Assembly (NCBI RefSeq): GCF_001422285.1
Contig: NZ_LMMO01000003.1
Coordinates: forward strand, 1,007,135 to 1,071,134
Length of the DNA: 64,000 nt
Direction: 5' to 3'
Source: Frigoribacterium sp. Leaf263
GTDB lineage: Bacteria; Actinomycetota; Actinomycetes; Actinomycetales; Microbacteriaceae
Below the pieces are notes generated by a model. That model did no database searches, was not told the DNA's origin, and worked only from the letters and a program-made list of their open reading frames with translations. Both the position numbers and the translations under genes were made by a program. Positions 1,443 through 63,364 of this stretch are shown here, in pieces; the first letter of the stretch is position 1, and each line of letters starts with the position of its first letter.

Positions 1443-1457
1443 GAGGAGGTGCGGGTC
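1443..1457 (+). repeat. interspersed 15-mer, 14/15 match, intergenic
   Basis: GAGGAGGTGCGGGTC, one base (T at position 8) different from the window-wide consensus GAGGAGGCGCGGGTC. It lies between the palindromic operator and the TetR start codon. Confidence 0.6.
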
Positions 1458-1475
1458 GGCCGTAGAGTTCCCGTC

Positions 1476-2120
1476 ATGACCGCAGATCCCGCCCCCGCCG
1501 AGACCGACGCGCCCGCCGCCCCGCGCAGCGCCCGGGGACCTCGCGGCCCGTACGCGAAGTCGACGGAGCGGCGTGCGGCGATCGTCGACGCCGCCTTCGA
1601 GGTGTTCTCGACGCGGGGCTACCGCGGCGGCTCGCTCCAGGAGGTCGCCGACCGGGTCGGCGTCAGCCAGACCGGACTGCTGCACTACTTCCCGTCGAAG
1701 CGCGCCCTGCTGCGCGCCGTCCTCGAGCGCCGTGACGCGATGACGAGCGGCATCCCGCTCGACGCCGCCCCCGATCAGGACTTCCGGGAGGGGGTGCTCC
1801 GCCAGGCGCGCTACAACGAGACCGTGCCCGGGCTGATCGCCCTGTACGCCGTGCTCGCCGGCGAGGCCGCGACGGAGGACGCACCCGTGCGCGGCTATGT
1901 GGCGGCCCGGTTCGAGGGCCTCCGGGCCGAGTACGCGGAGGGGTTCCGCGATCTCGAGTCGAGAGGCCGCCTCCGGCCCGGTGTCGACCCGGCCCGGGCC
2001 GCCGCCGGTCTCGTCGCCCTGTGGGACGGCATCCAGCTGCAGTGGCTGATCGACCCGAGCAGCGTCGACGTCGAGCAGCAGCTGCGCGACCACTTCGATT
2101 CGCTGGTGCTGCCCGACTGA
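1476..2120 (+). CDS. TetR/AcrR family transcriptional regulator
   Basis: 214 residues. The N-terminal helix-turn-helix (about residues 25-70) shows the TetR pattern: R-R-A-A-I-V-D-A-A-F, then F-S-T-R-G-Y, then V-G-V-S-Q-T-G-L-L-H-Y-F. The C-terminal half is helical ligand-binding sequence typical of the family. The ATG at 1476 was chosen because the upstream GTG at 1449 has a Shine-Dalgarno only one base away. It is divergent from the sugar-binding protein gene, with a 16-base palindrome between them, so it likely represses the importer and itself. The ligand is unknown. Confidence 0.88.
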   Translation: MTADPAPAETDAPAAPRSARGPRGPYAKSTERRAAIVDAAFEVFSTRGYRGGSLQEVADRVGVSQTGLLHYFPSKRALLRAVLERRDAMTSGIPLDAAPDQDFREGVLRQARYNETVPGLIALYAVLAGEAATEDAPVRGYVAARFEGLRAEYAEGFRDLESRGRLRPGVDPARAAAGLVALWDGIQLQWLIDPSSVDVEQQLRDHFDSLVLPD

Positions 2121-2125
2121 GCCGT

Positions 2126-2140
2126 GCCGCGCCTCCTCGG
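2126..2140 (-). repeat. interspersed 15-mer, GC-ended variant
   Basis: The complement reads CCGAGGAGGCGCGGC. It matches the first 12 bases of the consensus and the usual CC flank, but ends GC instead of GGTC. It sits in the 39-base gap between the convergent TetR and DoxX genes. Confidence 0.45.
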
Positions 2141-4237: not shown

Positions 4238-5178
4238 GGGGTGGTCCCTTCGTGCACGACCCCGTCGGATCCGGGGTCGGGTCGGGTGCTGCGGGGATCG
4301 TGGTCACGAGGAACCACCACGAGGGGGACGGGCACGCCGCGCACGATCTTCGCGGCGACGCTCCCGAGGAACAGCCGGTGGGGCTGCGCCAGACGACTCG
4401 ACCCGACGAAGACGAGCTCGTCGGCGGTCCAGGTCAGATCGCGGATCGCGTCGCCGATGCGCGGGCCCGCGGCGATCTCGACGGTGACGTCGACGCGATC
4501 GGGCACGGTGCGGAGTGCCACGTCGCGGAGCCCCTCGGCGTGCTCGCGGGCGACGGCGTGCCGGTCGTCGGCGCGATCACGGGTGTCGACCGAACCGGTG
4601 CCGTCGGCGACGTCGAGGGGGACGAGCGACACGAGTCGGAGCGGGAGCCGCGCGGCCGAGGCCACGGCGATGGCCGAGTCGACGACCGCCCGGGCGCCGG
4701 CGCGCGTGCCGACGGCGGCCGTGATCGTCCCGAAGCGGTGCACCCCGCGGCCGGCGAGACCCGCCGGGGCGATGGCCACGGGCACCGGCGCCGAGTGCAC
4801 GAGCACCCCGCCGACGCTGCCGAGGTGCAGACGGCCGAAGGCGCCCTCCTTGCCGGCGCCGATGACGATGGCGTCGGCGCCGAGATCCCCGGCAGCCGTC
4901 ACGAGACCCTCGGCGAAGGTCTCGGCCCGGACGACGTGCGCGGTCGACGCGACGGACTCCGGGAGCCCGGCCCGCGCCTCCTTCAGCCACCCCTCGGCGA
5001 GATCGTCGAGATGTCGCTCGTACGACGGACCGACGGGCACGAGGGAGGCGCGCCCCTCGTCGTGCAGGACGAGCACGAGATCGAGACGCAGACCGAGCGT
5101 CGCCGCGAGGGCGGCGCCGAGGGCCAGGGCGTCTCGCCCGGCGGGGGTGTCGAGGTAGCCGACGATGACGGATCTCAC
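4234..5178 (-). CDS. tandem-domain universal stress protein (UspA family)
   Basis: 314 residues with two Usp domains, about 1-140 and 155-290. Each begins with a hydrophobic beta strand; the first is S-V-I-V-G-Y-L-D-T-P. Each ends with a G-x2-G-x9-G(S/T)-type nucleotide loop: V-I-G-A-G-K-E-G-A-F-G-R-L-H-L-G-S-V in domain 1, V-G-S-S-R-L-A-Q-P-H-R-L-F-L-G-S-V-A in domain 2. The family binds ATP and modulates stress survival. The start is GTG at 5178, 106 bases after the putrescine oxidase stop. The ATGA overlap with the amine permease suggests that it regulates or accompanies the transporter. Confidence 0.85.
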   Translation of the reverse strand: MRSVIVGYLDTPAGRDALALGAALAATLGLRLDLVLVLHDEGRASLVPVGPSYERHLDDLAEGWLKEARAGLPESVASTAHVVRAETFAEGLVTAAGDLGADAIVIGAGKEGAFGRLHLGSVGGVLVHSAPVPVAIAPAGLAGRGVHRFGTITAAVGTRAGARAVVDSAIAVASAARLPLRLVSLVPLDVADGTGSVDTRDRADDRHAVAREHAEGLRDVALRTVPDRVDVTVEIAAGPRIGDAIRDLTWTADELVFVGSSRLAQPHRLFLGSVAAKIVRGVPVPLVVVPRDHDPRSTRPDPGSDGVVHEGTTP

Positions 5179-8238: not shown

Positions 8239-9642
8239 TCAGCCGGTCGGCACGAGCGCGTACGTGGTGTCGAGGTACTCGTGGATGCCCTCGCGTCCGC
8301 CCTCGCGGCCGACCCCGGACTGCTTGACGCCGCCGAAGGGCGCCGCGGCGTTCGAGACGAGGCCGGTGTTGACGCCCAGCATGCCGGTCCGCAGGCGCCC
8401 GAGCAGGCGGTGCGCCGAGGCGAGGTCGGTCGTGAACAGGTAGGCGACGAGACCGTACGGGGTGTCGTTGGCGAGGGCGACCGCGTCGTCCTCGTCCGAG
8501 AAGGTCGTGATCGGGGCGACGGGGCCGAAGACCTCGTCGTGCAGGACGGCGGCGTCGCGGGGGACGTCTGCGAGCACGGTCGGGGCGAAGAACGATCCGG
8601 GGCCGTCGAGGGCAGTCCCCCCGACGACGACGCGGGCTCCGCGTCGGACCGCGTCGTCGACGAAGGCCGCGCACGATGCCACGGCGCGGTCGTGGATGAG
8701 CGGGCCGATGTCGACGCCGTCGTCGGTGCCCCGCCCGACGACGAGCGCCGAGACCCGCTCGGCGAGACGCCGGGTGAACTCGTCGGCGATCGACTCGTGC
8801 ACGAGCAGCCGGTTGGCGGCCGTGCAGGCCTGCCCCGTGTTGCGGAACTTCGCGAGCATCGCGCCGTCGACCGCGGCGTCGAGGTCGGCGTCGGCCAGGA
8901 CGATGAAGGGGGCGTTGCCGCCGAGCTCCATCGAGGTGCGCAGCACGTTCTCGGCGGCCTGGGCGAGCAGGACGCGGCCGACCGCGGTCGACCCGGTGAA
9001 CGAGAGCTTCCGGAGGCGCGGGTCGGCCAGCAGCGGAGCGGTGACGCCCTTCGAGTCGGTCGTCGTCAGGACGGTCAGCACGCCGTCGGGCAGACCCGCC
9101 TCGGCGAGCAGCTCGGCGAACCGGATCGTCGTCAGCGGGGTCAGGTCGGCGGGCTTGATCACGACCGTGCAGCCCGCGGCGAGCGCCGGGGCGATCTTGC
9201 GGGTCGCCATGGCGAGCGGGAAGTTCCACGGCGTGATGAGGTAGCTGGGGCCCACGGGGCGGTGGGTGACGACCATGGTGCCCGTGCCCTCGGGGTTGGG
9301 GCCGAAGCGTCCGTCGATGCGGACCGCCTCCTCGGAGAACCAGCGGAGGAACTCGCCGCCGTAGGTCACCTCTCCCCGGGCCTCCGCGAGCGGCTTGCCC
9401 ATCTCCTGCGACATCAGGAGGGCGAACTCGTCGCGGCGCTCCATGAGCAGGTCGAAGGCTCGGCGGAGGATCTCGCCGCGCGCTCGTGGAGGGGTCGCGG
9501 CCCAGGCGTCCGCGGCGGCGACGGCCCGGTCGAGGGCGCGGACGGCGTCGGCCGGCGTCTGGTCGGGGACCCGGGCGAGTTCGTCTCCCGTGGCGGGGTC
9601 GTGGACGGCGAAGGTCGCCGCGCCTCCTGCGAGGGTGCTCAT
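8239..9642 (-). CDS. gabD: succinate-semialdehyde dehydrogenase
   Basis: 467-residue aldehyde dehydrogenase. The active-site cysteine lies in F-R-N-T-G-Q-A-C-T-A-A-N-R and the general base in M-E-L-G-G-N-A-P-F, both hallmarks of the SSADH branch. L-S-F-T-G-S-T-A-V-G-R is the NAD-binding turn. It oxidises succinic semialdehyde to succinate, the last step from GABA to the TCA cycle. Its ATG overlaps the TGA of gabT by four bases. The N-terminus (residues 5-9, A-G-G-A-A) overlaps a weak 10-base core of the interspersed repeat. Confidence 0.88.
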   Translation of the reverse strand: MSTLAGGAATFAVHDPATGDELARVPDQTPADAVRALDRAVAAADAWAATPPRARGEILRRAFDLLMERRDEFALLMSQEMGKPLAEARGEVTYGGEFLRWFSEEAVRIDGRFGPNPEGTGTMVVTHRPVGPSYLITPWNFPLAMATRKIAPALAAGCTVVIKPADLTPLTTIRFAELLAEAGLPDGVLTVLTTTDSKGVTAPLLADPRLRKLSFTGSTAVGRVLLAQAAENVLRTSMELGGNAPFIVLADADLDAAVDGAMLAKFRNTGQACTAANRLLVHESIADEFTRRLAERVSALVVGRGTDDGVDIGPLIHDRAVASCAAFVDDAVRRGARVVVGGTALDGPGSFFAPTVLADVPRDAAVLHDEVFGPVAPITTFSDEDDAVALANDTPYGLVAYLFTTDLASAHRLLGRLRTGMLGVNTGLVSNAAAPFGGVKQSGVGREGGREGIHEYLDTTYALVPTG

Positions 9643-10997
9643 CGGTTCGCCGCCAGTGCCTCGGCGACGACGTCGAGGCCGTCCTGGAGCAGGTCGTCGC
9701 CGATGGTGAGCGGCGGGAGGAACCGGATGACGTTGCCGTGGGTGCCGCAGGTGAGCACGATGACGCCGTTGGCGTGGCAGTGGGCGACGACGCGGCCGGT
9801 GAGCCCCGGGTCGGGTTCGCCGCTGAGGGGGTCGACGAGCTCGACGGCGATCATGGCGCCTCGGCCGCGGACGTCGCCGAGGCGCGGGTCGGAGGCCTGC
9901 AGGCGGTGCAGTCGGTCGAGCAGCAGCTCGCCGATGCGCTCGGCCCGCTCGACGAGGCCGTCGTTCTCGAACGAGTCGATGGCGGCGAGGGCGGCGGCGC
10001 AGGCGAGGGGGTTGCCGCCGTAGGTGCCGCCGAGGCCGCCGACGTGCGGGGCGTCCATCATCTCGGCGCGGCCGGTGACGGCCGACAGCGGGAGACCGCC
10101 CGCGATGCCCTTGGCGGTGACGACCAGGTCGGGGACGATCCCCTCGTGCTCGCTGGCGAACATCCGGCCCGTGCGGGCGAAGCCGGTCTGGACCTCGTCG
10201 GCGATGAAGACGACGTCGTTCGCGCGGCACCAGTCGACGAGGGCGGGGAGGAACCCCTCGGCGGGGACGATGAAGCCGCCCTCGCCCTGGATGGGCTCGA
10301 TGACGACCGCGGCGAGCGAGCCGGCGCCGATCTGCTTCTCGATCTGCGAGATGGCCCGGGCCGCCGCCTCGGGGCCGCTCAGCCCGCCGTCGCGATACGG
10401 GTACGACAGGGGCGCCCGGTAGATCTCGGGGGCGAAGGGGCCGAAGCCGGTCTTGTAGGGCATCGCCTTGGCGGTGAGCGCCATCGTGAGGTTGGTGCGG
10501 CCGTGGTAGGCGTGGTCGAAGGCGACGACGGCGGTCTTCCCGGTGTACGAGCGGGCGATCTTGATCGCGTTCTCGACGGCCTCGGCGCCGGTGTTGAACA
10601 GGGCGGTGCGCTTGTCGTGATCGCCGGGGGTGATGCGGTTCAGGGCCTCGCAGACCGCGACGTAGCCGTCGTACGCGGTGATCATGAAGCACGAGTGGGT
10701 GAAGCGCTGCACCTGCTCGACGACGGCGTCGACCACGGCGGGGGCGGAGTTGCCGACGCCGGTGACGGCGATGCCCGAGCCGAGGTCGATGAGGGTGTTG
10801 CCGTCGACGTCGGTGAGGACTCCCCCGCCGGCCGCCTCGGTGAAGACCGGGAGGCTGACGCCGACGCCGGCGGCCACGGCCTGCCGTTTGCGCTCCATGA
10901 GCTCGCGGCTGCGCGGGCCGGGGATCTCGGTGACGAGGCGCCGGCGCTGCTCGAGGCCGGGCCCGCCGCGCGGCGTGGTGACGGTGGTGGTGCTCAT
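9639..10997 (-). CDS. gabT: 4-aminobutyrate transaminase
   Basis: Class III PLP aminotransferase of 452 residues. It moves the amino group of GABA to 2-oxoglutarate, giving succinic semialdehyde. Seen in sequence: D-L-G-S-G-I-A-V-T-G-V-G near the start, F-N-T-G-A-E-A-V-E-N-A-I-K-I-A-R, the cofactor aspartate in F-I-A-D-E-V-Q-T-G-F-A-R-T-G and the Schiff-base lysine in V-V-T-A-K-G-I-A-G-G. The ATG at 10997 has GGAGC five bases upstream; in-frame starts further up lack this. It is first in the leftward operon, overlaps gabD by ATGA, and is divergent from the PucR regulator. Confidence 0.92.
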   Translation of the reverse strand: MSTTTVTTPRGGPGLEQRRRLVTEIPGPRSRELMERKRQAVAAGVGVSLPVFTEAAGGGVLTDVDGNTLIDLGSGIAVTGVGNSAPAVVDAVVEQVQRFTHSCFMITAYDGYVAVCEALNRITPGDHDKRTALFNTGAEAVENAIKIARSYTGKTAVVAFDHAYHGRTNLTMALTAKAMPYKTGFGPFAPEIYRAPLSYPYRDGGLSGPEAAARAISQIEKQIGAGSLAAVVIEPIQGEGGFIVPAEGFLPALVDWCRANDVVFIADEVQTGFARTGRMFASEHEGIVPDLVVTAKGIAGGLPLSAVTGRAEMMDAPHVGGLGGTYGGNPLACAAALAAIDSFENDGLVERAERIGELLLDRLHRLQASDPRLGDVRGRGAMIAVELVDPLSGEPDPGLTGRVVAHCHANGVIVLTCGTHGNVIRFLPPLTIGDDLLQDGLDVVAEALAANR

Positions 10998-11119: not shown

Positions 11120-12676
11120 ATGCGACCGACCGTGCGGGCCCTCGTCCGCGAGCAGGCCCTCGGGCTGCGACTGCTGGACCCGACCACCCGTCTCGACCTG
11201 CCCCTCTCGTGGGTGCACAGCTCGGACCTGCTCGACCCGTCGCCGTTCGTCGCCGAGTCGACGATGCTGCTGACCACCGGCACCCAGTTCGACGACGCCG
11301 CCGGGCCGCCCGACTACGACGCGTACGTCGAGCGCCTCGTCGTCGCGGGCGTGGTGGCCCTCGGCTTCGGCACCGAGGTGCGGCACCGCGGCACGCCCGT
11401 CGAGCTCGTCGTGGCCGCCTCGGCCCGTGGGGTGCCCGTCGTCGAGGTGCCGTACCGCACCCCGTTCATCGCCGTCGTCCGCTGGGCCGCCGACCTCATC
11501 GCCCAGGAGGCGCGGGCCAGGGATCTCTGGACGCTGCGGGCCCAGCGCGCCGTCTCGGTCGCGGCGATCGGCGAGGGCGGGCTCGAGGCGGTGCTGCGGG
11601 TGCTCGCCGAGCAGCTCTCGGGCGCGGTGCTGCTCTTCGGGTCGGACGGCGCTCGCCGGCACGCGGCGGCGCCCGACCGGAGCGGCCCCGCGCCGGAGGG
11701 GCCGCCCGCCGGAGCGATCGCGCCCGACGACCCGCGACGGGTCGACGACGAGGCCGTGCGCCTCCTGCGCCGGGGGGCGCGCGCGAGCAGCACGGTCGTG
11801 GGGCCCACCTCGGTGACGACGCTGCAGACGCTCGGCCGCCGCGACGAGCTGCGCGGCGTGCTCGCCGTCGTCACGAGCCGTGATCTCGACCTCGCGGCCC
11901 GGGCCGTCGTGACGAGCGTCGTGGCCCTCGCCGAGACCACCCTCGACCGCGACGCCGCCCGACTGCGCGGTCAGCGCGAGCTGTGGGCGCAGGTGTGGGC
12001 GCTGCTCGTGTCGGGACGCGTCGACGTCGCTCGGGCCATCACCCGCTCCGTGGGCGTCGGACTCGCGGACGGCCCCTCCGTCGTGGCCCTGATCGCGCCT
12101 CCCGAGCGCTCTGCCGCCCTCGCGATCGACGCCGTCGAGCGCGTCGCCGCCGGGCGCTCCGACGTCTTCGTCGCACCGCTCGGCGATCAGCTCGTCGTGC
12201 TGGCGACCCCCGGGGCCATCGACCTCGTCGCCCTGGCCGCGGCGCACGGCCTCCGGGTGGGCGTCTCGGACGTGGTCGGACACGACCGGCTGGCCGGGGC
12301 GCTCGGTCAGGCGCGACGGGCCCTCGCCCTCGCGCAGGCCGGGGCCGGCGCCTCCGGGGACGAGGAGGCGGTGGTCCCCTGGTCGCGCGTCGCCGCAGGC
12401 GGTCTCGTGGCCGCCCTCTGGACGGACGAGGCCGCGCGACTGGCGGACACGCGCCTGGCCCCCGTGCGCGCCCTCGACGACGGCGACGAGCTGCTCGCGT
12501 GCAGCCGCGTCTGGCTCGAGCACAACGGCGCCTGGGAGCCCGCCGCGCGGCAGCTCGGCCTGCACCGCCACAGCCTCCGCGCGAGGGTCGCGAAGGTCGA
12601 GCGCACGCTCGGCCTGTCGCTCGACGGATTCGCCGATCGGGCGGAACTCTGGGCGCTGCTGCAGGCGACCGGGTAG
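11120..12676 (+). CDS. PucR family regulator of the putrescine/GABA cassette
   Basis: 518 residues. The N-terminal PucR ligand domain (about 1-130) includes W-V-H-S-S-D-L-L-D-P and T-G-T-Q-F. It is followed by a GGDEF-like linker domain and a C-terminal PucR helix-turn-helix, H-R-H-S-L-R-A-R-V-A-K-V-E-R-T-L-G, near residue 475. This order is typical of actinobacterial activators of nitrogen-compound catabolism (PucR, GabR-like). It is divergent from gabT and shares a promoter region with an inverted repeat, so it most likely senses GABA or a putrescine product. The ligand is inferred. Confidence 0.85.
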   Translation: MRPTVRALVREQALGLRLLDPTTRLDLPLSWVHSSDLLDPSPFVAESTMLLTTGTQFDDAAGPPDYDAYVERLVVAGVVALGFGTEVRHRGTPVELVVAASARGVPVVEVPYRTPFIAVVRWAADLIAQEARARDLWTLRAQRAVSVAAIGEGGLEAVLRVLAEQLSGAVLLFGSDGARRHAAAPDRSGPAPEGPPAGAIAPDDPRRVDDEAVRLLRRGARASSTVVGPTSVTTLQTLGRRDELRGVLAVVTSRDLDLAARAVVTSVVALAETTLDRDAARLRGQRELWAQVWALLVSGRVDVARAITRSVGVGLADGPSVVALIAPPERSAALAIDAVERVAAGRSDVFVAPLGDQLVVLATPGAIDLVALAAAHGLRVGVSDVVGHDRLAGALGQARRALALAQAGAGASGDEEAVVPWSRVAAGGLVAALWTDEAARLADTRLAPVRALDDGDELLACSRVWLEHNGAWEPAARQLGLHRHSLRARVAKVERTLGLSLDGFADRAELWALLQATG

Positions 12677-13200: not shown

Positions 13201-13215
13201 GAGGAGGCGCGGCGC
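13201..13215 (+). repeat. interspersed 15-mer, GC-ended variant
   Basis: CCGAGGAGGCGCGGCGC begins at 13199. It is exact over the 12-base core plus the CC flank, but ends CGC rather than GTC. Intergenic, between the DoxX and RecQ genes. Confidence 0.45.
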
Positions 13216-19787: not shown

Positions 19788-21431
19788 ATGACCCGACGCC
19801 ACCCCCGGTGGAGCATCGCCGCGCGCCTCTTCGCGCTGCAGGTGGTCGTGATCGTGCTGATCGCGGCCCTCGCCGCCGTCTGGACGATCCGCACCGCGCG
19901 CACCGACGCGGACTCCTCGGCGGCCCGCGCGTGCCTCGCCCTCGCCACCGGCGTCGCCGACAACCCGTTCGTGCGGGACGCCCTGACGACGACCGACCCG
20001 AGCGCGCTGCTGCAGCCCTATGCCCTCGACCTGATGCGCGACACCTCGACCGACTTCGTCACCATCATGACGACCGACCGCACCCGCCTCACCCACCCCG
20101 ACCCGGCCGAGATCGGCCGCCCCTTCGTCGGCACGATCGACCCCGCGCTCGAGGGCCGGTCGTTCACCGAGACCTACACGGGGACGCTCGGCCCCTCGGT
20201 GCGCGCCGTCGTGCCGGTCCGCTCGGCGGACGGCGAGATCGTGGCCCTCGTCTCCGCGGGCGTGACCGTCTCGGCCATCGCCGACACGCTCGAGGAGCGT
20301 CTGGCCCTCGTGCTCGTCGCGGCCGCGACCACCGTGCTGCTCGGCGCCGTCGCCTCATGGCTGCTCAGCCGCTACCTCCGGCGCGTCACCCGCGGCCGCG
20401 GCCCCGAGGAGCTGGGGCGCCTCTTCGACTACTACGAGGGGGTCCTGCACTCGGTGCGCGAGGGGCTCCTGCTCGTCGACGACCGCGGGCGCCTGACGCT
20501 CTACAACGACCAGGCCGCCGAACTCCTCGGGCTGCCGCCGGGCGGGGTCGACCGGCCGATGCCCCTCGACGGGCTGGAGCTGCCGGACTCCCTCGCGCGC
20601 CTCCTCGTGGAGGGTCGACGGGCGGACGACGAGGTGCACGTCACCGACGACCGCGTGCTGGTCGTCAACCAGCAGCCCACCGGAGCAGAGAGCCCGGGAG
20701 GCGCGGGTCGCCCGGGCCCCGACCGCACGCTCGGGACGGTCACCACCCTCCGCGACCGCACCGAGCTGACCCACCTCGCCGGCGAGGTGGAGAGCATGCG
20801 GACCCTCGCCGACGCCCTGCGGTCGCAGACCCACGAATTCTCGAACCGGCTGCACACGATCGTGTCGCTGATCGAGCTCGGACGCACCGACGAGGCGATG
20901 GCCTTCGCCGCCACCGGGCTCGACGTCGACCAGCGTCTCGCGGACAGCCTGATCCACTCCGTCGAGGAGCCGGCCCTCGCCGCGCTGCTGCTCGGCAAGA
21001 CGGCCCAGTCGCGGGAACGCGGCGTCGACCTCGTGATCGACGTCGACCCGGGGCTCGGCGGCCTCGAGGTCGAGCCGCGCGACCTCGTCACCGTGCTGGG
21101 CAACCTCCTCGACAACGCCCTCGACGCCGCGGAGGCCACCGTGCGGGTGACCGCCTGGCGGGACGCGGATGGCGTCGTCTTCGAGGTCGCCGACGACGGA
21201 CCGGGGCTCGGCGACGTCGAGCAGGCCTTCCGCCGCGGCTTCAGCACCAAGGAGGCCGGAAGCACCGGTCGCGGGGTCGGCCTCGCCCTCGTCCGCCAGG
21301 CGGTGTCGCGCGCCGGCGGAGGCATCACGGTGACCACGGGCGACGACGGGACCGTCTTCTCGGTGCGCTTCGCCGGCGCGGTGGACGCGGCCCCGCAGCC
21401 CCGGGCGGACCTCGGCGGGGGGCGGCGATGA
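19788..21431 (+). CDS. CitA/DcuS-family sensor histidine kinase
   Basis: 547 residues. One transmembrane segment (about 14-34), an extracytoplasmic PAS-like sensor (about 40-170), a second membrane segment (about 178-200), a cytoplasmic PAS domain and a kinase core. The phosphoacceptor region Q-T-H-E-F-S-N-R-L-H-T-I-V-S-L is characteristic of citrate/C4-dicarboxylate sensors. The ATP-binding N-box N-L-L-D-N-A-L-D-A and the D-D-G-P-G-L-G and G-V-G-L-A-L-V loops are intact. GAGGAG lies seven bases before the ATG at 19788. The PAS-to-kinase linker carries a 13/15 copy of the interspersed repeat (20695-20709). It probably senses succinate or related acids for dctA. Confidence 0.88.
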   Translation: MTRRHPRWSIAARLFALQVVVIVLIAALAAVWTIRTARTDADSSAARACLALATGVADNPFVRDALTTTDPSALLQPYALDLMRDTSTDFVTIMTTDRTRLTHPDPAEIGRPFVGTIDPALEGRSFTETYTGTLGPSVRAVVPVRSADGEIVALVSAGVTVSAIADTLEERLALVLVAAATTVLLGAVASWLLSRYLRRVTRGRGPEELGRLFDYYEGVLHSVREGLLLVDDRGRLTLYNDQAAELLGLPPGGVDRPMPLDGLELPDSLARLLVEGRRADDEVHVTDDRVLVVNQQPTGAESPGGAGRPGPDRTLGTVTTLRDRTELTHLAGEVESMRTLADALRSQTHEFSNRLHTIVSLIELGRTDEAMAFAATGLDVDQRLADSLIHSVEEPALAALLLGKTAQSRERGVDLVIDVDPGLGGLEVEPRDLVTVLGNLLDNALDAAEATVRVTAWRDADGVVFEVADDGPGLGDVEQAFRRGFSTKEAGSTGRGVGLALVRQAVSRAGGGITVTTGDDGTVFSVRFAGAVDAAPQPRADLGGGRR

Positions 21432-43650: not shown

Positions 43651-43665
43651 GAGGAGGCGCGGGTC
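43651..43665 (+). repeat. interspersed 15-mer, exact, just after a stop codon
   Basis: Exact GAGGAGGCGCGGGTC, one base after the ThrE TGA. Its last seven bases are the left arm of the hairpin at 43659-43681. Confidence 0.85.
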
Positions 43666-53719: not shown

Positions 53720-55519
53720 GTGAACGAATCGTCAGGGCCCGACGACGCCCTGAGCCGTGACGACGTGCGCGTCGCGCACGAGGACGACCCCACGTGGGCC
53801 CTGCTCCGCAGCTACAACAGCCGCTGGATGCTCCCGCTCTTCTCGCGCCATCTCGAGCACGCCGAGGGTCCCGTCTCGGCCGACTGGTTCCACCAGCAGG
53901 TCGCCCAGGCCCTCGAGCTGAACGCGCTCGATCAGACCGCGCCCGACCAGACCGCGCCAGTCCGGACCGCGCCAGTCCAGGCCGGAACCGAGGAGGCGCG
54001 GGTCGGCGGATCCGGGGCGACGGCCGCCCCCGAGACCCGCACCACCCCGGTCGACTACTGCCGGAGCTGGGTCGCCAGCCGGTGGCTGATCCGCACCCGC
54101 GCCTCCTCGACGGACGACGGCGGGGCACGCCACGGCGACGCCGGCCACGGCGGCTCGAGCAGCACGACGACCGGCACCTCCCCCGTGGCCGACGGCTGGG
54201 GCGCGTTCGGCGCCGCTCATCCGAGCGGCACGGCGGCGGGGTCGGCCCCGACGCGCGCCTCGAGCCCGCCCCCGCGCGGCGAGGCCCGCGCGCAGTACCG
54301 GCTCTCCCCCTCCGCGCTCAAGGCGCTGCGCATCGTCCGCGAGCTCGTGGAGCAGGACAACGCGGTGAGCGAGGCGCGACTCGGCAGCATCGCCCACGCC
54401 GTCGGGCAGCTCGCCGGTCTCGCGGACCCGAGCGTCGAGGCGCAGACGGCGCGGATCGACGAGCAGATCGCCGAGCTGCAGCGCCGCCGGGCCCGCATCG
54501 AGCAGCACGGCACCGAGCCGGTCGGCCCCGACGTGCTGAAGCGCCAGGTGCGCGAGGTGGTGCGGCTGACCGCGTCGCTCCCCGAGGACTTCCGTCAACT
54601 GAGCAGCATGGTCGAGCAGCGGCACCGCGAGGTGGCGCGCCGGGCGACCGTCGAGCACGTCGGCAAGGGCGCGCTCGTCGAGCAGTACCTGCGCGAGAAC
54701 GACCTGCTCGAGCAGACCCCCGAGGGGCGCGCGTACCGCGGTTTCGCGCAGATGCTGTCGTCGCGCGAGATCGACGTGATGCGGGCCGACATCGAGCTGA
54801 TCCTCGATCATCCGGCCGCCGGCGAGCATCTGACCGAGCGGCAGCGCACGCAGCTCGAGTCGCTGATCTCGTCGCTGCTGGCCGAGGAGCAGTCTGTGCA
54901 AGAGACGTACGGGCGCTGGACGTCGTCGCTCCGCCGGTTCCTCAGCCGGTCGTCGACCGAGCGGCACCAGAGACTGCTCACCCTCGCCGACCGGGCCCTG
55001 CACGCCGGCGGCGTCTGGGCCGAACGCCGACCCGGCCCGGCCGTGCTGCCCGTCGACGTGCTCGGCCTCGGTGCGCTCGACGTCGTCGACATCAGCCAGG
55101 CGCAGCTGCACAGCGACCGCGGGCGGCCGACGGTCGACGTGCAGGTGCCCGAGGGCGACGCCATGCTGCCGGCGGCCGACCGGGCCGCGCTCCGCCTCTC
55201 GTCCGGCACGAGCACCGCGGCGGTCGCGGCGACCCTCGAGCGTCTGCTCGAGGCCGACGAGACCGTCACGAGCGCCGATCTGCACGAGGCGACCGACCCC
55301 GAGTTCCGCCGGCTCGGGCTCGTGCTCAGCATGCTCGACCTCGCCATCGACCAGGGCCTCGTCGACGAGAGCACCGAGACCGTCACGCTGACGAGCGCCG
55401 ACGACGCAGGAGGCGCGGATCGCCGGGTCGTCCTCCCCCGCCTCGTCTTCCGGCGACCGCCCGCACGGGGCGACGACGCCCCCGACTCCGCCCCGCAGTC
55501 CGAGAGAGACCCCGCATGA
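53720..55519 (+). CDS. jetA: JetA (DUF3375), MksF-like subunit of Wadjet type I
   Basis: 599 residues, about 100 more than usual. JetA is the kleisin-like subunit of an SMC-type complex. The start region D-P-T-W-A-L-L-R-S-Y-N-S-R-W-M-L-P-L-F matches DUF3375. The predicted wing near 88-190 is expanded by low-complexity linkers that contain E-E-A-R-V and T-R-A-S-S from two repeat copies; the conserved chain resumes at Y-R-L-S-P-S-A-L-K-A-L. GGAGG lies eight bases before GTG 53720; TTG 53717 is the alternative. It overlaps jetB by ATGA. Confidence 0.85.
   Translation: MNESSGPDDALSRDDVRVAHEDDPTWALLRSYNSRWMLPLFSRHLEHAEGPVSADWFHQQVAQALELNALDQTAPDQTAPVRTAPVQAGTEEARVGGSGATAAPETRTTPVDYCRSWVASRWLIRTRASSTDDGGARHGDAGHGGSSSTTTGTSPVADGWGAFGAAHPSGTAAGSAPTRASSPPPRGEARAQYRLSPSALKALRIVRELVEQDNAVSEARLGSIAHAVGQLAGLADPSVEAQTARIDEQIAELQRRRARIEQHGTEPVGPDVLKRQVREVVRLTASLPEDFRQLSSMVEQRHREVARRATVEHVGKGALVEQYLRENDLLEQTPEGRAYRGFAQMLSSREIDVMRADIELILDHPAAGEHLTERQRTQLESLISSLLAEEQSVQETYGRWTSSLRRFLSRSSTERHQRLLTLADRALHAGGVWAERRPGPAVLPVDVLGLGALDVVDISQAQLHSDRGRPTVDVQVPEGDAMLPAADRAALRLSSGTSTAAVAATLERLLEADETVTSADLHEATDPEFRRLGLVLSMLDLAIDQGLVDESTETVTLTSADDAGGADRRVVLPRLVFRRPPARGDDAPDSAPQSERDPA
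53990..54004 (+). repeat. interspersed 15-mer, exact, in jetA
   Basis: Exact GAGGAGGCGCGGGTC read in frame as E-E-A-R-V, at about residues 91-95 of JetA. Confidence 0.85.
54094..54108 (-). repeat. interspersed 15-mer, 14/15, in jetA
   Basis: CACCCGCGCCTCCTC on the plus strand, C for G at the first base. It is read as T-R-A-S-S about 35 residues after the opposite-facing copy in the same gene. A third, weaker copy (55407-55421) lies near the JetA C-terminus. Confidence 0.7.
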
Positions 55520-56469
55520 GCCCCGACCAGTACGACGCGACCGACGCGGCCACGCCGACCCGCACCTCCTCGGGGGCGCAGGAGGTGACCGGGTCGGCGA
55601 CGGCGGACGGCGTCGACGCCGCCACCGCCGGAGCGGCCCTCGACCGGGGCGACGACGGGTCGCCGGATCGGCTGCGCGACGAGCTGCCCCTCGCCGGACG
55701 GAAGGCGCTCGTGACGCTGCTGACGCATCGCTTCGTGTCGCGGTCCCGGCAGGGCGAGGCCTGGGCCGCCCTCGTCGCCTACGAGCCCGAGATCCGCGCG
55801 CGACTGGACGAGATGTTCCTCGTGCTGATCGTCGATCACGAGTACGAGGTCGCCTTCAAGCGGCAGAGCGGACAGGACGACGTGCCGATCCTGCTGCGTC
55901 GCGAGAAGCCGATGTCGCGCGACGCCTCGCTGCTGCTGGTGTTCCTCCGCCGGGAGCACGCCTTCAGCGACGCCCACGACGAGTCCGTCGTGGTGTCGCG
56001 CCACCAGATCGCGGAGTTCCTCGACCGGTACCACGACGACGCCTCGCACGACGAGATCCGCTCGACGCGGCGGGTCGACGCGGCCATCGCGGCCATGGTG
56101 ACGCGCGACCTGCTCGAGCCGGAGCCCGACGACCCCGCGCTGTTCGTCGTCGCACCCGCGATCGTGCCTCTCGTGACGGCCGAGCAGCTCGCGCACCTCG
56201 AGAGGGTGTTCCTCGAGGCGGCCGGGGCCGATGCGCCCGTCGACGCCCCGCTCGGCGTCGAGGACGACGAGCCGTCGGACGACGAGGACTCCGACGACGG
56301 ACGCCCCGACGACGGGCCGCGTCTCGTCGCCGACCCCGCCGTCGGCGATTCCGGCGCCGACGAGGCGCCCGACGCCGCCGAGGCGCCCGACGCCGACGAG
56401 GCCCCGCGCCCCGACCCGACCGCCGTCGCGCTCGACATCCCCCTCGACCCGGAAGCAGACCAGGCATGA
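55516..56469 (+). CDS. jetB: JetB (DUF4194), MksE-like subunit of Wadjet type I
   Basis: 317 residues. The DUF4194 core spans about 55-235: L-P-L-A-G-R-K-A-L-V-T-L-L-T-H-R-F, then F-L-V-L-I-V-D-H-E-Y-E-V-A-F-K-R-Q, then winged-helix segments. JetB bridges the JetA-JetC complex. The N-terminal tail includes T-R-T-S-S-G from a repeat copy. The C-terminal 75 residues are a strongly acidic tail with E-A-P-D-A repeats, unusual for the family. It overlaps both neighbours by four bases. Confidence 0.87.
   Translation: MSPDQYDATDAATPTRTSSGAQEVTGSATADGVDAATAGAALDRGDDGSPDRLRDELPLAGRKALVTLLTHRFVSRSRQGEAWAALVAYEPEIRARLDEMFLVLIVDHEYEVAFKRQSGQDDVPILLRREKPMSRDASLLLVFLRREHAFSDAHDESVVVSRHQIAEFLDRYHDDASHDEIRSTRRVDAAIAAMVTRDLLEPEPDDPALFVVAPAIVPLVTAEQLAHLERVFLEAAGADAPVDAPLGVEDDEPSDDEDSDDGRPDDGPRLVADPAVGDSGADEAPDAAEAPDADEAPRPDPTAVALDIPLDPEADQA
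55557..55571 (-). repeat. interspersed 15-mer, 14/15, near the JetB N-terminus
   Basis: GACCCGCACCTCCTC, with A for G at position 8. It is read as T-R-T-S-S at residues 15-19. A 13/15 relative (56483-56497) gives T-R-T-S-P at residues 7-11 of JetC. Confidence 0.65.
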
Positions 56470-59400
56470 TCCCCGCCGACGCGACCCGCACCTCCCCGGC
56501 CTTCGGAACGGCCCCCGAGACGGCCCCCGAGTCGACCTCCGACGACGAGGCGACGCCCGATCTCGGCATGTTCCACTCGGGGCAGTACCGCATCCAGCAG
56601 GTGCAGCTGCTCAACTGGGGCAGCTACTCGGGGCTGCACCGCATGCCCGTCGGCCGCGGCGGCATCGCGATCCTCGGCCCCACCGGGCGCGGCAAGTCGA
56701 CCGTGCTCGACGCCATGGCGGCCGTCATCATGCCGAACCCGCAGGAGTTCAACCGCGCCGCCCGCGACGACAGCCGCCAGCGCTCCGAGCGCACCGTCTA
56801 CAGCTACGCGCGCGGCAAGACCGACGAGATCCGCGACGCCGCCTCCGACCGGACGACCACGCGGTTCCTCCGACCGCTCGGCGAGGCCTTCGCGAGCGGT
56901 GCCGCGATCACGTACGCGACCGAGCTCGGGCAGACCCTCACGGCCGTCCGCCTCGCCTGGATCGGCACCGACACCTCGAGTCAGGACGACGTGACGCAGG
57001 CCAGCGTCTACCTGCTCGTCCGCGGGCCCTTCGACCTCAGCCGACTGACCGAGGTCAAGCGCGACGCCAGCAGCTCGAGTCCGCTGACGAAGGGCTCCCT
57101 CGCGCGCCTCCTCGATCCCCTGCGCGACCTGGTCACCTCCTCGCAGCCCGAGTTCCGGGTGCGGCTCTGCGGCGAGCTCGGCATCGGCGGCAGCGACGAG
57201 TCGCAGCTGAAGGCGCTGACGCTGCTGCGTCGGGCGCAGGCCTCGAAGGGCGTCTTCTCGATCGACGAGCTGTTCAAGCAGTTCGTGCTGACGCAGCCGA
57301 AGGCCCTCTCCCGCTGGGAGACCACGCTCGGCACGTACCGCGAGGCCTCGGCTCTCTACGACGTCTTCGAGACGACGCGCAGGAAGCTCGCCGTGCTCGA
57401 GCCGGTGCCGGGCCTCGCCGACCGCTACGAGATCGCGGGCCACGATGCGACCGAGAAGCGCCGCCTGGTCGACGAGACCGACGGCCCGAGCCGGTTGCGC
57501 GTCTGGCTCGCCGAGAAGGTCGGGAGCTGGGTCAGCGGCGAGGTCGACCGGGTCACCGGCGACAAGCGCGCCCTGTCGGAGTCGAGGAGGCGCGCGGCCG
57601 CCGACGACACCGCCGCGTACCGTGCCCGTGAGCAGGCCCTGGCCCGCATCTCGGATCTCGGCGGCGACCCCTCCCAGTCGCTCCGCCAGCTCGTGGCCAC
57701 CGCCGAGCGCGACCTCGCCGTGATCGAACGCGAGCGTCGGCGCTTCGCGACGGCGCTCGACGGCACGGGCGAGTCCGTGCCGACCAGCGAGAAGCAGCTC
57801 GTGGCCCTGCGGCAGCGTGCCGGGGTGCTCGCGGCGGAGGACGCCGCGGCCCGCGCCGCGGCCGACGAGGTGCGCGGCGAGCTCGCCGCCCGCATCGGCG
57901 AGACGAAGCGCGCCCTGTCGGCCCGCGAGGCGCAGCGCCGCTCGTTCGAGCAGCGCGGTGGCAACGTCCCCGACGACGCGGCCGAGCGTCGACTGCGCAT
58001 CGCCGAGGGCACCGGCATCCCGGTCGCGGGTCTGCCCTACGCCGGCGAGCTGTTCGAGGTCGCCGCGGCGCACACCGACTGGAGCGTGGCGATCGAGCGG
58101 GTCGTCGGCGACCTGGCCACGCACCTCCTCGTCGACCGCTCGAGGTTCGACGCCGTCCGCCGCTTCGTCAACGACAACGACATGCGCGGCCGCATCACGC
58201 TCGTCCCCGCCTCGACCGGCGTCGAGCCCACGCGCGAGGCCGTCGCCCGGACCGTCCCCGCGATGCTGCAGTTCGACGAGCGGAGCCCGTTCGCCGGCTG
58301 GCTCGTCGACGAGATCGTGCGCGAGCGCAGCGTGCTGTGCGTCGAGGGTCCGGACGACCTCGACTCGCCCGTGCCCACCGGTGCCCGCGGCGCGGTCACG
58401 CGGGCCGGCCTCCGGACGGGGTCGGGGGGCCGGGTCGTGAAGGACGACCGGCGATCACGGTCGTGGATCGGACTCGACAACAGCGCCCGGATCGCCGAGC
58501 TGACCGACGAGATCGCATCGCTCGAGCGCGACCTGACCGTCGCCCGCGCCGCATGGGACTCCGCCGAGGCCGAGTCGTCGGCACGCCGCCGCATGCTCGA
58601 CGCCGTGGCCCGGTCGACCGAGTTCTCGTGGACCGACATCGACACCGCGCCCGCGCAGGCCCGCCTGGACGACCTGCAGGGTCAGCTCGACCGGTTGTCC
58701 GACGAGCGTCCCGAGCTCGCGACGCTGCAGGCCGACGCCCGCCGCCACGACGACGAGCGCTCGGCCGCGACCCGACGCCTCGCCGAGCTCGACCACGAGC
58801 TGGCCCGTCTCGACGCCGAGCACTCGACCCTCGTCGACATCGAGGACGCCTTCAGCGACGCCCTCGGCGGCGCCGACCCGCTCACCGACCACGAGCGCGC
58901 CCTGCTCGCGCCCCTGCCCTTCGCCGCTCCGCGCGAGGTGGCCGACGTCGAGCGGTCGTACCGCGAGGCGCTGGGTCTGCTGCGCGGTCAGATCGACGGC
59001 CACGACCGCGAGCGCACGCAGGCCGAGAACACCCTCGTGCTGATCTTCGAGCGGTACCTCGAGCTCGACCGGACGGCCGGCATCGACGCGTCGATCGACA
59101 GCCTCGGCGCCGTCAGGGCCATCCACCGCACCCTCGTCGACGACGCCCTGCCGAGCGCGAAGCAGGACTGGCTCGCGAAGGCCGGCGCCGACATGGGCGA
59201 CAGCCTCCGGGCCCTGCTCGTGCAGATCGAGGAGGACGGTCACGTCATCCGGCGCGGCGTCCGGCCCATCTCGCAGGCTCTGCGGTCGATCGAGTTCCGC
59301 GAGGGGTCGACGCTCGACATCGAGCCGCGGCCCGTGTCGAACGGCGACCTCGTCGAGTTCAAGCGGACCCTGCGCGAGCACATCGGCGACCGATCCGAGG

Positions 59401-59968: not shown

Positions 59969-60024
59969 GCCCGCGCCTCCTGCCCGGTGCCGCCGCCGAC
60001 GGCGGCCCCTCAGGAGGCGCGGGT
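59969..60024. terminator. cruciform of two opposed interspersed repeats after jetC
   Basis: CCCGCGCCTCCTG (59970-59982) pairs perfectly over 13 bases with CAGGAGGCGCGGG (60011-60023). The 28-base loop holds a second stem, CCGCCG/CGGCGG. It starts 18 bases after the jetC stop. The right arm is a 14/15 interspersed repeat (60011-60025) and the left a 12/15 copy in opposite orientation. Likely a transcription terminator. Confidence 0.7.
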
Positions 60025-60149
60025 CGACCCCACCTGCACCCCCGCCGTGCACGCGCTGGGAGAACACCCGGCCGCCGACCCCCCGGTGCGCTTCGGCCTA
60101 CCGTGCACCGCAGCCGGTGACGCGCTGGCATATGACCGAAGGGGACATC

Positions 60150-61110: not shown

Positions 61111-63158
61111 GCCGACGTCCGCGGCACGACGTCCTCGAAGCGCCGGTCGGCGACCAGCACCTCCGGCGCGTCCGGCCCGCCGTCGCGCGCCCAGGCCCGG
61201 ACCGTGTTGACGACCACGTAGTCGTCCGCCGTCGCCGTCACCCGCGAGGTCGTCTCGAGTCGGGCCCGCCAGTCGGGCTTCTCGAGGCCGATCGCCCAGC
61301 GCGACTCGGCCGACGCCGACAGCGGGTCGCCGTCGACGATGCGGTAGGTCTCGCGGCTCTCCTCGCTGAAGACGAGACCGTCGGGGTACTCGCGGCCGCC
61401 GCCGTAGCCCGGGTCGACGTCGAGCACCCACTCCCCCGTGCCGACGTCGTGCGTGACGCTGCGCTCCGGCAGATCGGACGTCGGCGGCAGGGCGCGGACG
61501 GCCAGCGGCGTCGCGCGCTCGGGCTCCTCGAAGCGCACGCCGTCGTCGCCGGTGCGCGTCCAGACCGGCAGGGTGACCGAGCTCCGCTGCGGGTCGATGG
61601 TCAGGGCCGCCTCGTCGGCGTGCGGCCAGATCCACGGCCAGTAGGCCGACGACACCGCGATGCGGAGGCGGTGGCCGGCCGGGAACGAGTGCCCGGTCGA
61701 GACCAGGGCGAGGCGCACGCTCTGCTCGACCCGCACCTCCATCGGGTCGTCGCGATCGCGGCCGTGCCGCTTGTTGAGGTTGAGCACGCCGCGGGTGACG
61801 AGCGTCGAGGCGCCGTCGGGCGCCACGTCGCAGAGCCGCACGATGACGGTCGCGTCGGGCCGGTCGCTCGTGACCGCGAGGTCGACGACGACGGAGCCGA
61901 GCACGTCGAGCGCGTCGTCCACGTCGAGGTCGAAGCACACCGACCGGCCGTCGTCGGCGCGCTGGTCGGGCGGCAGGTCCGTCGCGTTGCCGAACGGGAA
62001 GAACCGTCCGGCGTCGAGCCCGGTGCTCTGCGGCGAGCGCACCACGACCGGCCCGTGCTCGCCGCCGATCATCAGCTCGAGCGGCTCGACCCGCGACCGC
62101 GTCGCCGACGAGGGCCAGGCCTCGGCCGCGACCCAGCGCCCGGTGCGCTCGGCGTAGTACGTCGCGGGCGGCTCGGAGTCGTTGATCCAGGCCCGCAGCG
62201 CCGGCTCGTCGTCGACCCCGTTCGGCTCGTCGAGCAGCCAGCGGTCCAACCAGCGCAGGGTCTCCTGCAGGAATCCGATGCCCGGTCCGGGGGCGAGTCC
62301 GCGATCGGGGTACTGGTGCGACCAGGGCCCGATGATCCCCTTCACCGGTGCGTCGAGGTTCGCCACCAGCCGCAGCACGGCGTCGCGGTAGGGGTCGGCC
62401 CAGCCTCCGACGGCGAGGACGGCGGCGGTGATCGTCGTGTAGTCCTCGCAGACGCTGCCGTGGCGCCAGTAGTCGTCGCGCTCCTGGTGGGCCAGCCACG
62501 TCGGGGTCATCGGCCTGTTGTGCTCGAGGCGCTCGCGCCAGCGGGACACCCAGTCGGCGCCGACCACCTCGGGGCGCGGGGGGCGCGAGTTGAACGCGAG
62601 CATGGTGCCGCCCCAGGCGGCCATGTCGATGCCGAGCACGGCGCCGCCCATGTAGTGCACGTCGTTGTCGTAGCGGTCGTCGGTCGAGCAGACGGTGACG
62701 ATGGCCTTGAGCGCGGCGGGGGTCCGGCCCGCGAGCTGCAGGGCGTTGAACCCGCCCCACGAGATGCCGAACGCGCCCACCGCTCCGGTCGACCAGGGCT
62801 GCGCGGCGAGCCACTCGATCAGGGCGATGCCGTCGTCGAGCTCCTGCTCGGAGTACTCGTCGTCGAACAGGCCGTCGCTCGAGCCCGTGCCGCGGATGTC
62901 GACGCGCACCGAGGCGTACCCGCGGGCCGCGTACCAGGGGTGCCGCTCGCTGTCGCGCGGGGCCGTCCAGTCGTCGAGCCGGTATGGCAGGTACTCGAGC
63001 AGCACCGGCACCGGATGCTCGACCCGGGGAGCCCAGATGCGCGCGTGCAGACGCGTCCCGTCGGGCATCGGCACCCACTCGTCGCGCACGTCGACCGCGT
63101 GCACGGGGCGGGGATGACCCAGGAGGCGCGGGTCGGCCGAGCCGCCGCCCCCGGTCAC
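61107..63158 (-). CDS. CocE/NonD-family acyl hydrolase (X-Pro dipeptidyl-peptidase-like)
   Basis: 683 residues. Alpha/beta-hydrolase domain with the nucleophile serine in F-G-I-S-W-G-G-F-N near 131 and V-D-I-R-G-T-G-S-S-D-G before it. A C-terminal PepX_C beta-sandwich follows (about 400-660). Members cleave Xaa-Pro peptides, cocaine-like esters or amides. It is coupled through a tiny gene to a peptide-type ABC ATPase, so an imported peptide or amide is likely. The start region A-D-P-R-L-L-G-H-P comes from the repeat; the GTG at 63158 overlaps the upstream stop (GTGA). A later start before V-H-A-V-D-V is possible. Confidence 0.85.
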   Translation of the reverse strand: MTGGGGSADPRLLGHPRPVHAVDVRDEWVPMPDGTRLHARIWAPRVEHPVPVLLEYLPYRLDDWTAPRDSERHPWYAARGYASVRVDIRGTGSSDGLFDDEYSEQELDDGIALIEWLAAQPWSTGAVGAFGISWGGFNALQLAGRTPAALKAIVTVCSTDDRYDNDVHYMGGAVLGIDMAAWGGTMLAFNSRPPRPEVVGADWVSRWRERLEHNRPMTPTWLAHQERDDYWRHGSVCEDYTTITAAVLAVGGWADPYRDAVLRLVANLDAPVKGIIGPWSHQYPDRGLAPGPGIGFLQETLRWLDRWLLDEPNGVDDEPALRAWINDSEPPATYYAERTGRWVAAEAWPSSATRSRVEPLELMIGGEHGPVVVRSPQSTGLDAGRFFPFGNATDLPPDQRADDGRSVCFDLDVDDALDVLGSVVVDLAVTSDRPDATVIVRLCDVAPDGASTLVTRGVLNLNKRHGRDRDDPMEVRVEQSVRLALVSTGHSFPAGHRLRIAVSSAYWPWIWPHADEAALTIDPQRSSVTLPVWTRTGDDGVRFEEPERATPLAVRALPPTSDLPERSVTHDVGTGEWVLDVDPGYGGGREYPDGLVFSEESRETYRIVDGDPLSASAESRWAIGLEKPDWRARLETTSRVTATADDYVVVNTVRAWARDGGPDAPEVLVADRRFEDVVPRTSA
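63120..63134 (+). repeat. interspersed 15-mer, 14/15, near an N-terminus
   Basis: CAGGAGGCGCGGGTC. In the CocE gene it is read as D-P-R-L-L, a third reading frame of the motif. Confidence 0.7.
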
Positions 63159-63364
63159 GAGGCGGTCCCGTCGCGTCGGCCGCGGCCGTCCGTGGCGACG
63201 GCCCGCATCTCGACCCGGCGCTCGAGGTGGGCCTCGGCGCGGAGGCCGGCCTGCGCCTCCTCGTCCCGGGCGCGCTCGCGCAGCGTCGACCGCGAGGCGC
63301 CGGTCGTGCCCGTCGTCTCCGTCGTCTCGGTCGTCTCGGCCGTGGTCGTCTCGGTCGTGCTCAC
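63155..63364 (-). CDS. tiny Thr-rich protein coupled to the ABC ATPase and CocE
   Basis: 69 residues, GTG start. The first 22 are nearly only Thr and Glu (T-T-E-T-T repeats). The rest is a charged helical stretch, L-R-E-R-A-R-D-E-E-A-Q-A-G-L-R-A-E-A-H-L-E-R-R. The GTG overlaps the ATPase stop and its TGA overlaps the CocE GTG, four bases each. That tight fit is the main evidence that it is translated. A 13/15 repeat copy (63248-63262) lies within. No family recognised; it could be translational filler or an accessory peptide. Confidence 0.5.
   Translation of the reverse strand: MSTTETTTAETTETTETTGTTGASRSTLRERARDEEAQAGLRAEAHLERRVEMRAVATDGRGRRDGTAS

Follow-up and report, generated by a model that had tools for sequence, protein, structure and literature searches.

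A dispersed DNA word specific to the genus Frigoribacterium that may serve as an uptake signal

Why should one word of 15 bases, GAGGAGGCGCGGGTC, recur on both strands, within genes and between them, over 64 kb of an actinobacterial genome? The stretch in question, hereafter the window, is the whole 64-kb piece that was analysed (positions 1007135-1071134 of contig C3 in the 3.24-Mb genome of Frigoribacterium sp. Leaf263), and an earlier, sequence-only reading of it had drawn attention to eight exact copies. Our search returned the same eight, with every coordinate and strand as reported, together with nine one-mismatch and 21 two-mismatch copies; the eight one-mismatch copies listed earlier were all present, the ninth, at 15915 on the minus strand, had been overlooked, and the former figure of about a dozen two-mismatch copies was too low. 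For copies with at most two mismatches, dinucleotide shuffling led us to expect 2.14, and none of 100 shuffles reached the observed total of 38. We found that the word is specific to one genus, Frigoribacterium (Microbacteriaceae), and by analogy with the DNA uptake sequences (DUS) of Neisseriaceae and the uptake signal sequences (USS) of Pasteurellaceae we consider it fairly probable that it tags the DNA of this genus for uptake, the signal having arisen independently in an actinobacterium and being read by a receptor associated with a Tad pilus or with ComEA.

Across the whole genome we counted 266 exact 15-mers (128 on the forward and 138 on the reverse strand); the reversed control word was absent. 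In 400 kb of contig C1 there were 32, 34 and 86 copies at zero, one and two mismatches, compared with 0, 3 and 8 and with 0, 3 and 14 in the two order-5 Markov sequences that served as the null. When the window and these 400 kb were taken together (464 kb), pieces of the word ranked first among over-represented 9- to 13-mers, and a 10-base core, GGAGGCGCGG, was found 215 times against 8.0 expected under an order-3 model. The core numbers 1421 in the whole genome (694 and 727 by strand), its reversed control 103. A consensus drawn from the 190 sites with at most two mismatches in the 464 kb, a selection that inflates the conservation of the inner positions, spans about 17 bases and reads roughly CGAGGAGGCGCGGGTCG, with preferences extending from about a C before the 15-mer to a G after it and then fading. 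Because these preferences fade after about 18 bases, the copies are not fragments of a longer repeat. The true unit is therefore the core with its flanking preferences, of which the 15-mer is one frequent form.

Genes were called with a purpose-written, simple codon-usage caller, and in the 464 kb the genic copies of the exact 15-mer numbered 29, whereas 100 shuffles of synonymous codons gave 1.03 on average and never more than 4; for the core, 154 genic copies compared with a mean of 16.0 (maximum 26). Permuting codon order gave means of 0.08 for the 15-mer and 9.9 for the core (60 shuffles), and the reversed core stayed near its null in the codon-shuffle test (15 against 20.4). The 29 genic copies were distributed over four reading frames (sense 0, eight; sense 1, two; antisense 0, three; antisense 2, 16), and the other exact copies comprised nine between genes and two at gene edges. 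The sequence-only reading had noted a balanced orientation and had argued from at least four reading frames and from intergenic copies that codon preference could not explain the word, and on each of these points our counts bear it out. Neither of the two outcomes that it had named as refuting was observed, since copy numbers lie far above codon-aware expectation and copies are read in several frames.

A larger sample gave the same picture of siting. In 864 kb of the genome, with a coding fraction of 0.901, there were 351 cores, of which 247 were genic, 101 intergenic and three at edges, so that intergenic density was 3.7-fold above genic density; in 400 kb of the genome G006 the ratio was 5.2. 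Genic cores occupied all six frames (frames 0, 1 and 2: sense 51, 3 and 62; antisense 28, 30 and 73), although sense frame 1 held only 3 of 247. Within the 464 kb, 24 of the 154 genic cores were no more than 60 nt away from the start of a gene, against about nine expected from gene number and length. A reading of the GGAGG in the word as a ribosome-binding site was set aside because its use in genes is balanced between sense (116) and antisense (131). Cores also tended to come in inverted pairs. For cores within 60 bp of each other, our own genome had 14 pairs where 7.1 would be expected; 12 were inverted (p 0.006), and 7 of these 12 were intergenic. G006 had 20 pairs against 3.9, with 14 inverted (p 0.06). 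The convergent pairs of G006 numbered 12 (p 0.0009), of which 11 were intergenic and nine lay 10-58 bp past the end of a gene.

The word was largely confined to the genus. Each of 15 relatives in the genus carried 52-305 copies of the exact 15-mer; among 44 genomes outside it (21 of the same family and 23 of the same order), four had one or two copies and 40 had none. The core, present in 842-1725 copies in all 16 Frigoribacterium genomes, was enriched in only one of 83 others, G069 of the same family (688 against 107 for the control). In the remaining 82 it reached at most 157 copies (G082, control 262) and, where it exceeded 20, at most 1.7 times the control. Among the matches listed from a species-genome collection (at least 116 stretches), Frigoribacterium accounted for 22 of the 80 loci. 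Spread by phages was not suggested by viral contigs, among which at least 80 loci were listed with one match each (at least 120 stretches).

Variant words were also found. The 400 kb of G006 contained 28 copies of GGAGTCGCGGGTC against 0.07 expected, beside 35 of GGAGGCGCGGGTC, and in G069 the form was approximately GGCCTGGAGGCGCG.G.CGG, as judged from a dozen or so sites within 80 kb; the T-form of G006 and the G069 form have GGAG.CGCG in common, the latter being known from few sites. A different word, CGGATGC[C/G], was at least 3-fold more frequent than its reversed control in 14 of the 21 family genomes outside the genus (3- to 15-fold in G016, G017, G018, G020-G024, G026, G030, G032 and G034-G036; 3006 against 201 in G023), whereas the ratio was 0.9 to 1.6 within the genus (16 genomes) and stayed under 3 in each of the 23 same-order genomes searched. 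Frigoribacterium thus lacks the word found in its sister genera and carries its own instead. As a separate observation, AGGATCCG occurred 25 times against 4.2 expected in 60 kb of contig C2 of G019 and is perhaps another related word.

We compared orthologous DNA from two places, the surroundings of the window's SNF2 gene in 15 relatives and those of comEC in six of the same 15. At our own core sites 54 of 114 comparisons with relatives showed an identical core, whereas other 10-mers of equal flank identity would give 17.6, a retention about three times that of comparable 10-mers in comparisons that are not independent, as the same sites recur, and that leave sites with unalignable surroundings uncounted. 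In high-copy relatives the figure was 44 of 78 against 13.2. The core at 31190 was present in all eight aligned relatives although seven of them have only 48-55% identical flanks. Of the own-site alignments 104 of 114 were without a gap (10 gapped), and when the core sites that the relatives have at the SNF2 locus were aligned with the window, 64 of 73 showed no gap; an insertion can interrupt a local alignment, so that this test is biased against finding insertions. The copy at 27183 was most simply born by point mutation, since 11 of 15 relatives have GCAGGCGCGG, one substitution away. As read from these alignments, the word is maintained or re-made at the DNA level, with no sign of insertion seen. 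Homology between 400 kb of G006 and 864 kb of our own genome came to only 15 kb because different parts of the chromosome were compared. The copies in the window, with their setting and the retention of the core in aligned relatives where recorded, are as follows.

17050..17064, plus strand: exact 15-mer
21430..21444, minus strand: exact 15-mer
23752..23766, plus strand: exact 15-mer, antisense within the start of the gene at 22197-23771 (minus; MTTRASS...); core kept in 2/9
31187..31201, minus strand: exact 15-mer; core (site 31190) kept in 8/8, seven with flank identity 0.48-0.55
33225..33239, minus strand: exact 15-mer; core kept in 8/10
36565..36579, minus strand: exact 15-mer, intergenic; core kept in the sole aligned relative (1/1)
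43651..43665, plus strand: exact 15-mer, directly past the end of the ThrE-like gene at 42240-43649; core kept in 0/4
53990..54004, plus strand: exact 15-mer, within the JetA (DUF3375) gene
1443..1457, plus strand: one-mismatch copy
15915..15929, minus strand: one-mismatch copy, absent from the earlier list
27181..27195, plus strand: one-mismatch copy; core (site 27183) kept in 0/15, GCAGGCGCGG in 11/15
32616..32630, plus strand: one-mismatch copy; core kept in 0/1
41999..42013, minus strand: one-mismatch copy
54094..54108, minus strand: one-mismatch copy
55557..55571, minus strand: one-mismatch copy
60011..60025, plus strand: one-mismatch copy
63120..63134, plus strand: one-mismatch copy
2124..2138, minus strand: two-mismatch copy
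4969..4983, minus strand: two-mismatch copy
9010..9024, plus strand: two-mismatch copy
9876..9890, plus strand: two-mismatch copy
11504..11518, plus strand: two-mismatch copy
12362..12376, plus strand: two-mismatch copy, core broken; may be chance
13201..13215, plus strand: two-mismatch copy, core intact
16605..16619, minus strand: two-mismatch copy
17035..17049, plus strand: two-mismatch copy abutting the exact copy at 17050, core broken; may be chance
20695..20709, plus strand: two-mismatch copy, core intact
25280..25294, minus strand: two-mismatch copy
26445..26459, minus strand: two-mismatch copy; core kept in 6/8
39820..39834, plus strand: two-mismatch copy; core kept in 4/4
40257..40271, plus strand: two-mismatch copy
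40969..40983, plus strand: two-mismatch copy; core kept in 12/12, flank identity 0.83-0.92
41545..41559, plus strand: two-mismatch copy
47443..47457, plus strand: two-mismatch copy
55407..55421, plus strand: two-mismatch copy
56483..56497, minus strand: two-mismatch copy
57584..57598, plus strand: two-mismatch copy
63248..63262, minus strand: two-mismatch copy

One region of one relative was poor in the word. G015, a single contig of 3.71 Mb and the largest of the 16 genus genomes, lacks the 17-mer from 2,027,669 to 2,487,011 of its contig C1, a gap of 459 kb that is rare among 20,000 random placements (in which the widest gap averaged 167 kb and reached 476 kb at most). Five 20-kb samples of the gap held 3, 0, 1, 0 and 2 cores at a GC fraction of 0.675-0.705, that is, 6 cores per 100 kb sampled against about 43 expected from the count for the G015 genome, and one 20-kb stretch of G015 syntenic to the window held 13 at a GC fraction of 0.722. 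The shorter GGAGGCGC numbered 10, 4, 3, 2 and 10 in the samples against 17, so that the outer samples were less depleted. The gap has many short genes, and a scan of seven of its proteins brought out an SMC-like protein and a P-type ATPase, a content that would suit an integrated element; judging by size, GC and genes, the region is probably acquired.

The G015 region also has a dispersed word of its own, CATGCGCGGC, with 31 copies per 100 kb against 0.9 expected, 30 of the 31 intergenic. Another CATG often stands upstream of it, and its appearance is that of a promoter- or operator-like sequence belonging to a large integrated element. The whole of G015 holds 115 copies (control 27), a number that no other of 99 genomes reaches, with smaller excesses in G032 (46 against 9) and G080 (39 against 6). 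We put aside the idea that CATGCGCGGC is a dialect of the genus word because nearly all sampled copies are intergenic and no other genome reaches its count.

The anatomy of the genus word, its variants, the inverted pairs, the retention at orthologous sites and the depletion in a probably acquired region together point to a DNA uptake signal. Strand symmetry, independence of reading frame and an apparent origin of copies by substitution likewise have counterparts among DUS and USS (PMC3630211, PMC7811141). The earlier reading had proposed a search for competence genes, and these were present: our genome encodes a ComEA-like protein (SLBB and HHH_3 domains) directly before ComEC, in a comEA-comEC operon. 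In front of topA lie genes for an ATPase (T2SSE), a T2SSF protein and a pair of small pilin-like proteins matching DUF4244, the second match below the Pfam cut-off, and we read this cluster as a putative Tad/Flp-type locus. PilM_2, a marker of the type IVa (T4a) pilus, was found in 13 of the 16 genus genomes and was missing from eight of the 14 CGGATGC-rich family genomes. Papers are cited here by PubMed Central (PMC) number. Two other Microbacteriaceae are described as naturally transformable (PMC11577799), with constructs that carried flanks from the recipient genome and therefore do not bear on dependence on the word; in Micrococcus luteus, which has Tad/Flp pili and comEA/comEC, transformation needs tad genes (PMC4322843).

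Under the mechanism that we propose, the DNA-binding part of the uptake machine, a Tad-pilus minor pilin or ComEA being the candidates, would prefer DNA with roughly CGAGGAGGCGCGGGTCG around the core, and fragments that bear the word would enter more often and then recombine into the chromosome. Chance point mutations that create the word would thereby spread by molecular drive, giving about one core per 2.3 kb on both strands, mainly where proteins and regulation tolerate it, and words might be reused as inverted pairs, often behind genes. Drift in the specificity of the receptor would be followed by drift of the word, and so by dialects.

Several considerations weigh against the uptake reading. 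An effect of the word on uptake, competence of the genus, the existence of a receptor and the operation of drive are all steps that we infer, and no report of competence in Frigoribacterium was found in the open-licence PMC literature. ComEC was present in all 16 genus genomes and in 42 of 44 others (58 of 60) and T2SSE in all 60 genomes searched, so that neither discriminates carriers of the word from non-carriers. PilM_2 was not found in our genome, G002 or G005, the three richest in the 15-mer, which have apparently lost the T4a pilus; a ComP-like minor pilin of that pilus is therefore unlikely to be the general receptor, and no cognate receptor was found, having been probed only through this PilM_2 search. 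Retention in low-copy relatives was weaker (10 of 36 against 4.4), several of our own sites were kept in no aligned relative (27183 in 0 of 15; 8248 at the comEC locus in 0 of 6), the comparisons share sites and so are not independent, and retention by itself would fit any maintained protein-binding site too. The near-ubiquity of ComEC in relatives that lack the word, and the fit of retention and intergenic preference to a chromosomal protein's site, are among the strongest objections. The cores showed no even spacing, with Poisson-like counts per 20 kb (mean 8.1, variance 8.7), and the acquired nature of the G015 region is itself argued indirectly.

Of the four roles that the sequence-only reading had offered, the DNA uptake signal is the best supported, the REP-like element and the polar recombination or segregation signals are disfavoured, and the nucleoid-protein site remains a rival. 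In this last explanation the word would be a dispersed binding site for a chromosomal protein such as a nucleoid protein or a segregation or condensin-loading factor, and its dispersal, symmetry, intergenic preference and orthologous retention would all fit; its restriction to one genus with variants of the word, the lack of polarity along the one replicon tested and the inverted pairs, often behind genes, argue against it, and we regard it as unlikely. A recombination hot-spot of the Chi type, recognised by AdnAB, AddAB or some other helicase-nuclease and protecting or promoting the repair of self DNA, would share with our word the excess in shared DNA and the depletion in probably acquired DNA, which are Chi properties too (PMC8022716). 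Chi of Escherichia coli, however, has 8 nt and lies almost only on the leading strand (PMC8022716), whereas the strands here are balanced, the informative bases number 10-17, and the inverted pairs have no obvious use in a strand-specific signal. The strand-skew check proposed earlier revealed no replication polarity: in G015, where the first 100 of 119 sites were tested, no placement of the origin gave a leading fraction above 0.58 (permutation maxima: mean 0.592, 95% 0.641). RecC was found in none of 37 family genomes, compared with 7 of 23 same-order genomes above the cut-off. We therefore rejected polar signals of the Chi or KOPS (FtsK orienting polar sequence) kind on the lack of strand polarity in one genome, and RecBCD-type Chi also on RecC; the Chi-like explanation as a whole we hold to be improbable.

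Repetitive extragenic palindromic (REP) elements with REP-associated tyrosine transposases (RAYT) are dispersed short repeats, sometimes in inverted pairs, and a REP-like or other short mobile element inserting copies of itself would account for the high copy number and the pairing seen here. The search for a linked transposase suggested earlier was negative, however, with Y1_Tnp (PF01797) in none of the 16 genus genomes, on which ground we rejected a REP/RAYT element; homology between copies ends by about 18 bases, the ungapped alignments noted above (which may break at insertions) show no footprint, and site 27183 lies one base away from the word in most relatives, so that self-insertion of any kind appears highly improbable. 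A bias of codons, amino acids or restriction avoidance, with no signalling role, has in its favour that the word yields plausible codons in several frames (EEARV, TRASS, DPRLL). Synonymous and codon-order shuffles that leave about 1.0 and 0.08 copies against the 29 observed, the intergenic enrichment and a reversed control of zero speak against such a bias, to which we attach very little credence.

Beyond the genus, we offer as a tentative extension, with the odds somewhat against it, that sequence-specific uptake is family-wide in Microbacteriaceae and probably dependent on the Tad pilus, with CGGATGC as the tag in many genera and a switch to GGAGGCGCGG, with its sub-dialects, in Frigoribacterium. 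Telling against the extension, CGGATGC was mostly genic in both genomes considered, with intergenic ratios of 1.27 (G023) and 0.86 (G016), and its close pairs (10 against 11.8 expected in G023, 6 against 3.4 in G016) showed no clear excess, so that a family-wide series of dialects is not established; CGGATGC and the genus word may or may not have descended from one signal. If true, this would be the third DUS/USS system and the first in monoderms, with a self-recognition code replaced within one family.

Two neighbouring features of the window were observed in passing. At 53720-59951 on the plus strand PADLOC identified a Wadjet/Mks-type operon with JetA (DUF3375), JetB (DUF4194) and JetC (MukB-like), and no JetD was identified among the seven proteins scanned there. 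At 47430-50879 on the minus strand lies a gene for a protein of 1149 aa with an RNase H-like domain and AAA_11/AAA_12 helicase domains, which gave partial PADLOC matches to MkoA.

The sequence-only reading knew of no description of the word, and this agrees with the open-licence PMC literature, in which no such tag was found described for Microbacteriaceae or Actinobacteria; subscription papers and preprints fall outside this scope. No actinobacterial terms were found in PMC12616744, PMC2734928 deals with Neisseria and Haemophilus, and PMC7811141 states strong uptake preferences for species of two families, Neisseriaceae and Pasteurellaceae; of the other competent bacteria tested, most take up DNA irrespective of its sequence. 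If the uptake reading is true, an independent actinobacterial case would imply that the trait is tied neither to an outer membrane nor to a T4a pilus, would provide a natural replicate for the theory of molecular drive, and would help to explain who recombines with whom in the genus; a tag on donor DNA could also become a practical handle for genetics in Actinobacteria. Given the variant words and the different word of the sister genera, change in self-recognition codes would be directly testable.

Compared with known systems, the word resembles HIP1 of cyanobacteria in being a dispersed, high-copy genomic word (PMC4390886) and differs in that HIP1 is palindromic. Like Chi, it is over-represented and, as far as the one probably acquired region shows, commoner in shared than in acquired DNA (PMC8022716); unlike Chi, it is unpolarised and longer, in a family where RecC was not found in 37 genomes. 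From REP/RAYT elements it differs in that no Y1_Tnp was found in the genus genomes, no insertion footprint was seen and most copies are genic. With the USS of Pasteurellaceae it shares its copy number, its scarcity in constrained coding and, probably, in newly acquired DNA, and an accumulation explicable by biased uptake and mutation (PMC7811141), and it differs in having no AT-tract beside it (from base counts of the sites), in its unrelated sequence and in another type of host. The differences from the DUS are that the genus word is an unrelated GC-rich sequence in Actinobacteria, with an uptake role that here we infer, and that the DUS receptor ComP sits on the T4a pilus, whereas three of the 16 genus genomes are without PilM_2. 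For copy number, 1,892 DUS and 1,465 USS cores give the range (PMC7811141). As in the DUS of Neisseriaceae, which lie in permissive regions and form inverted pairs at terminators, a non-palindromic word of 10-12 bases on the order of one to three thousand copies occupies permissive sites and inverted pairs and has variants between related species (PMC3630211); the distribution of the DUS is atypical in acquired elements (PMC7371117), which the depletion in the probably acquired region of G015 may parallel.

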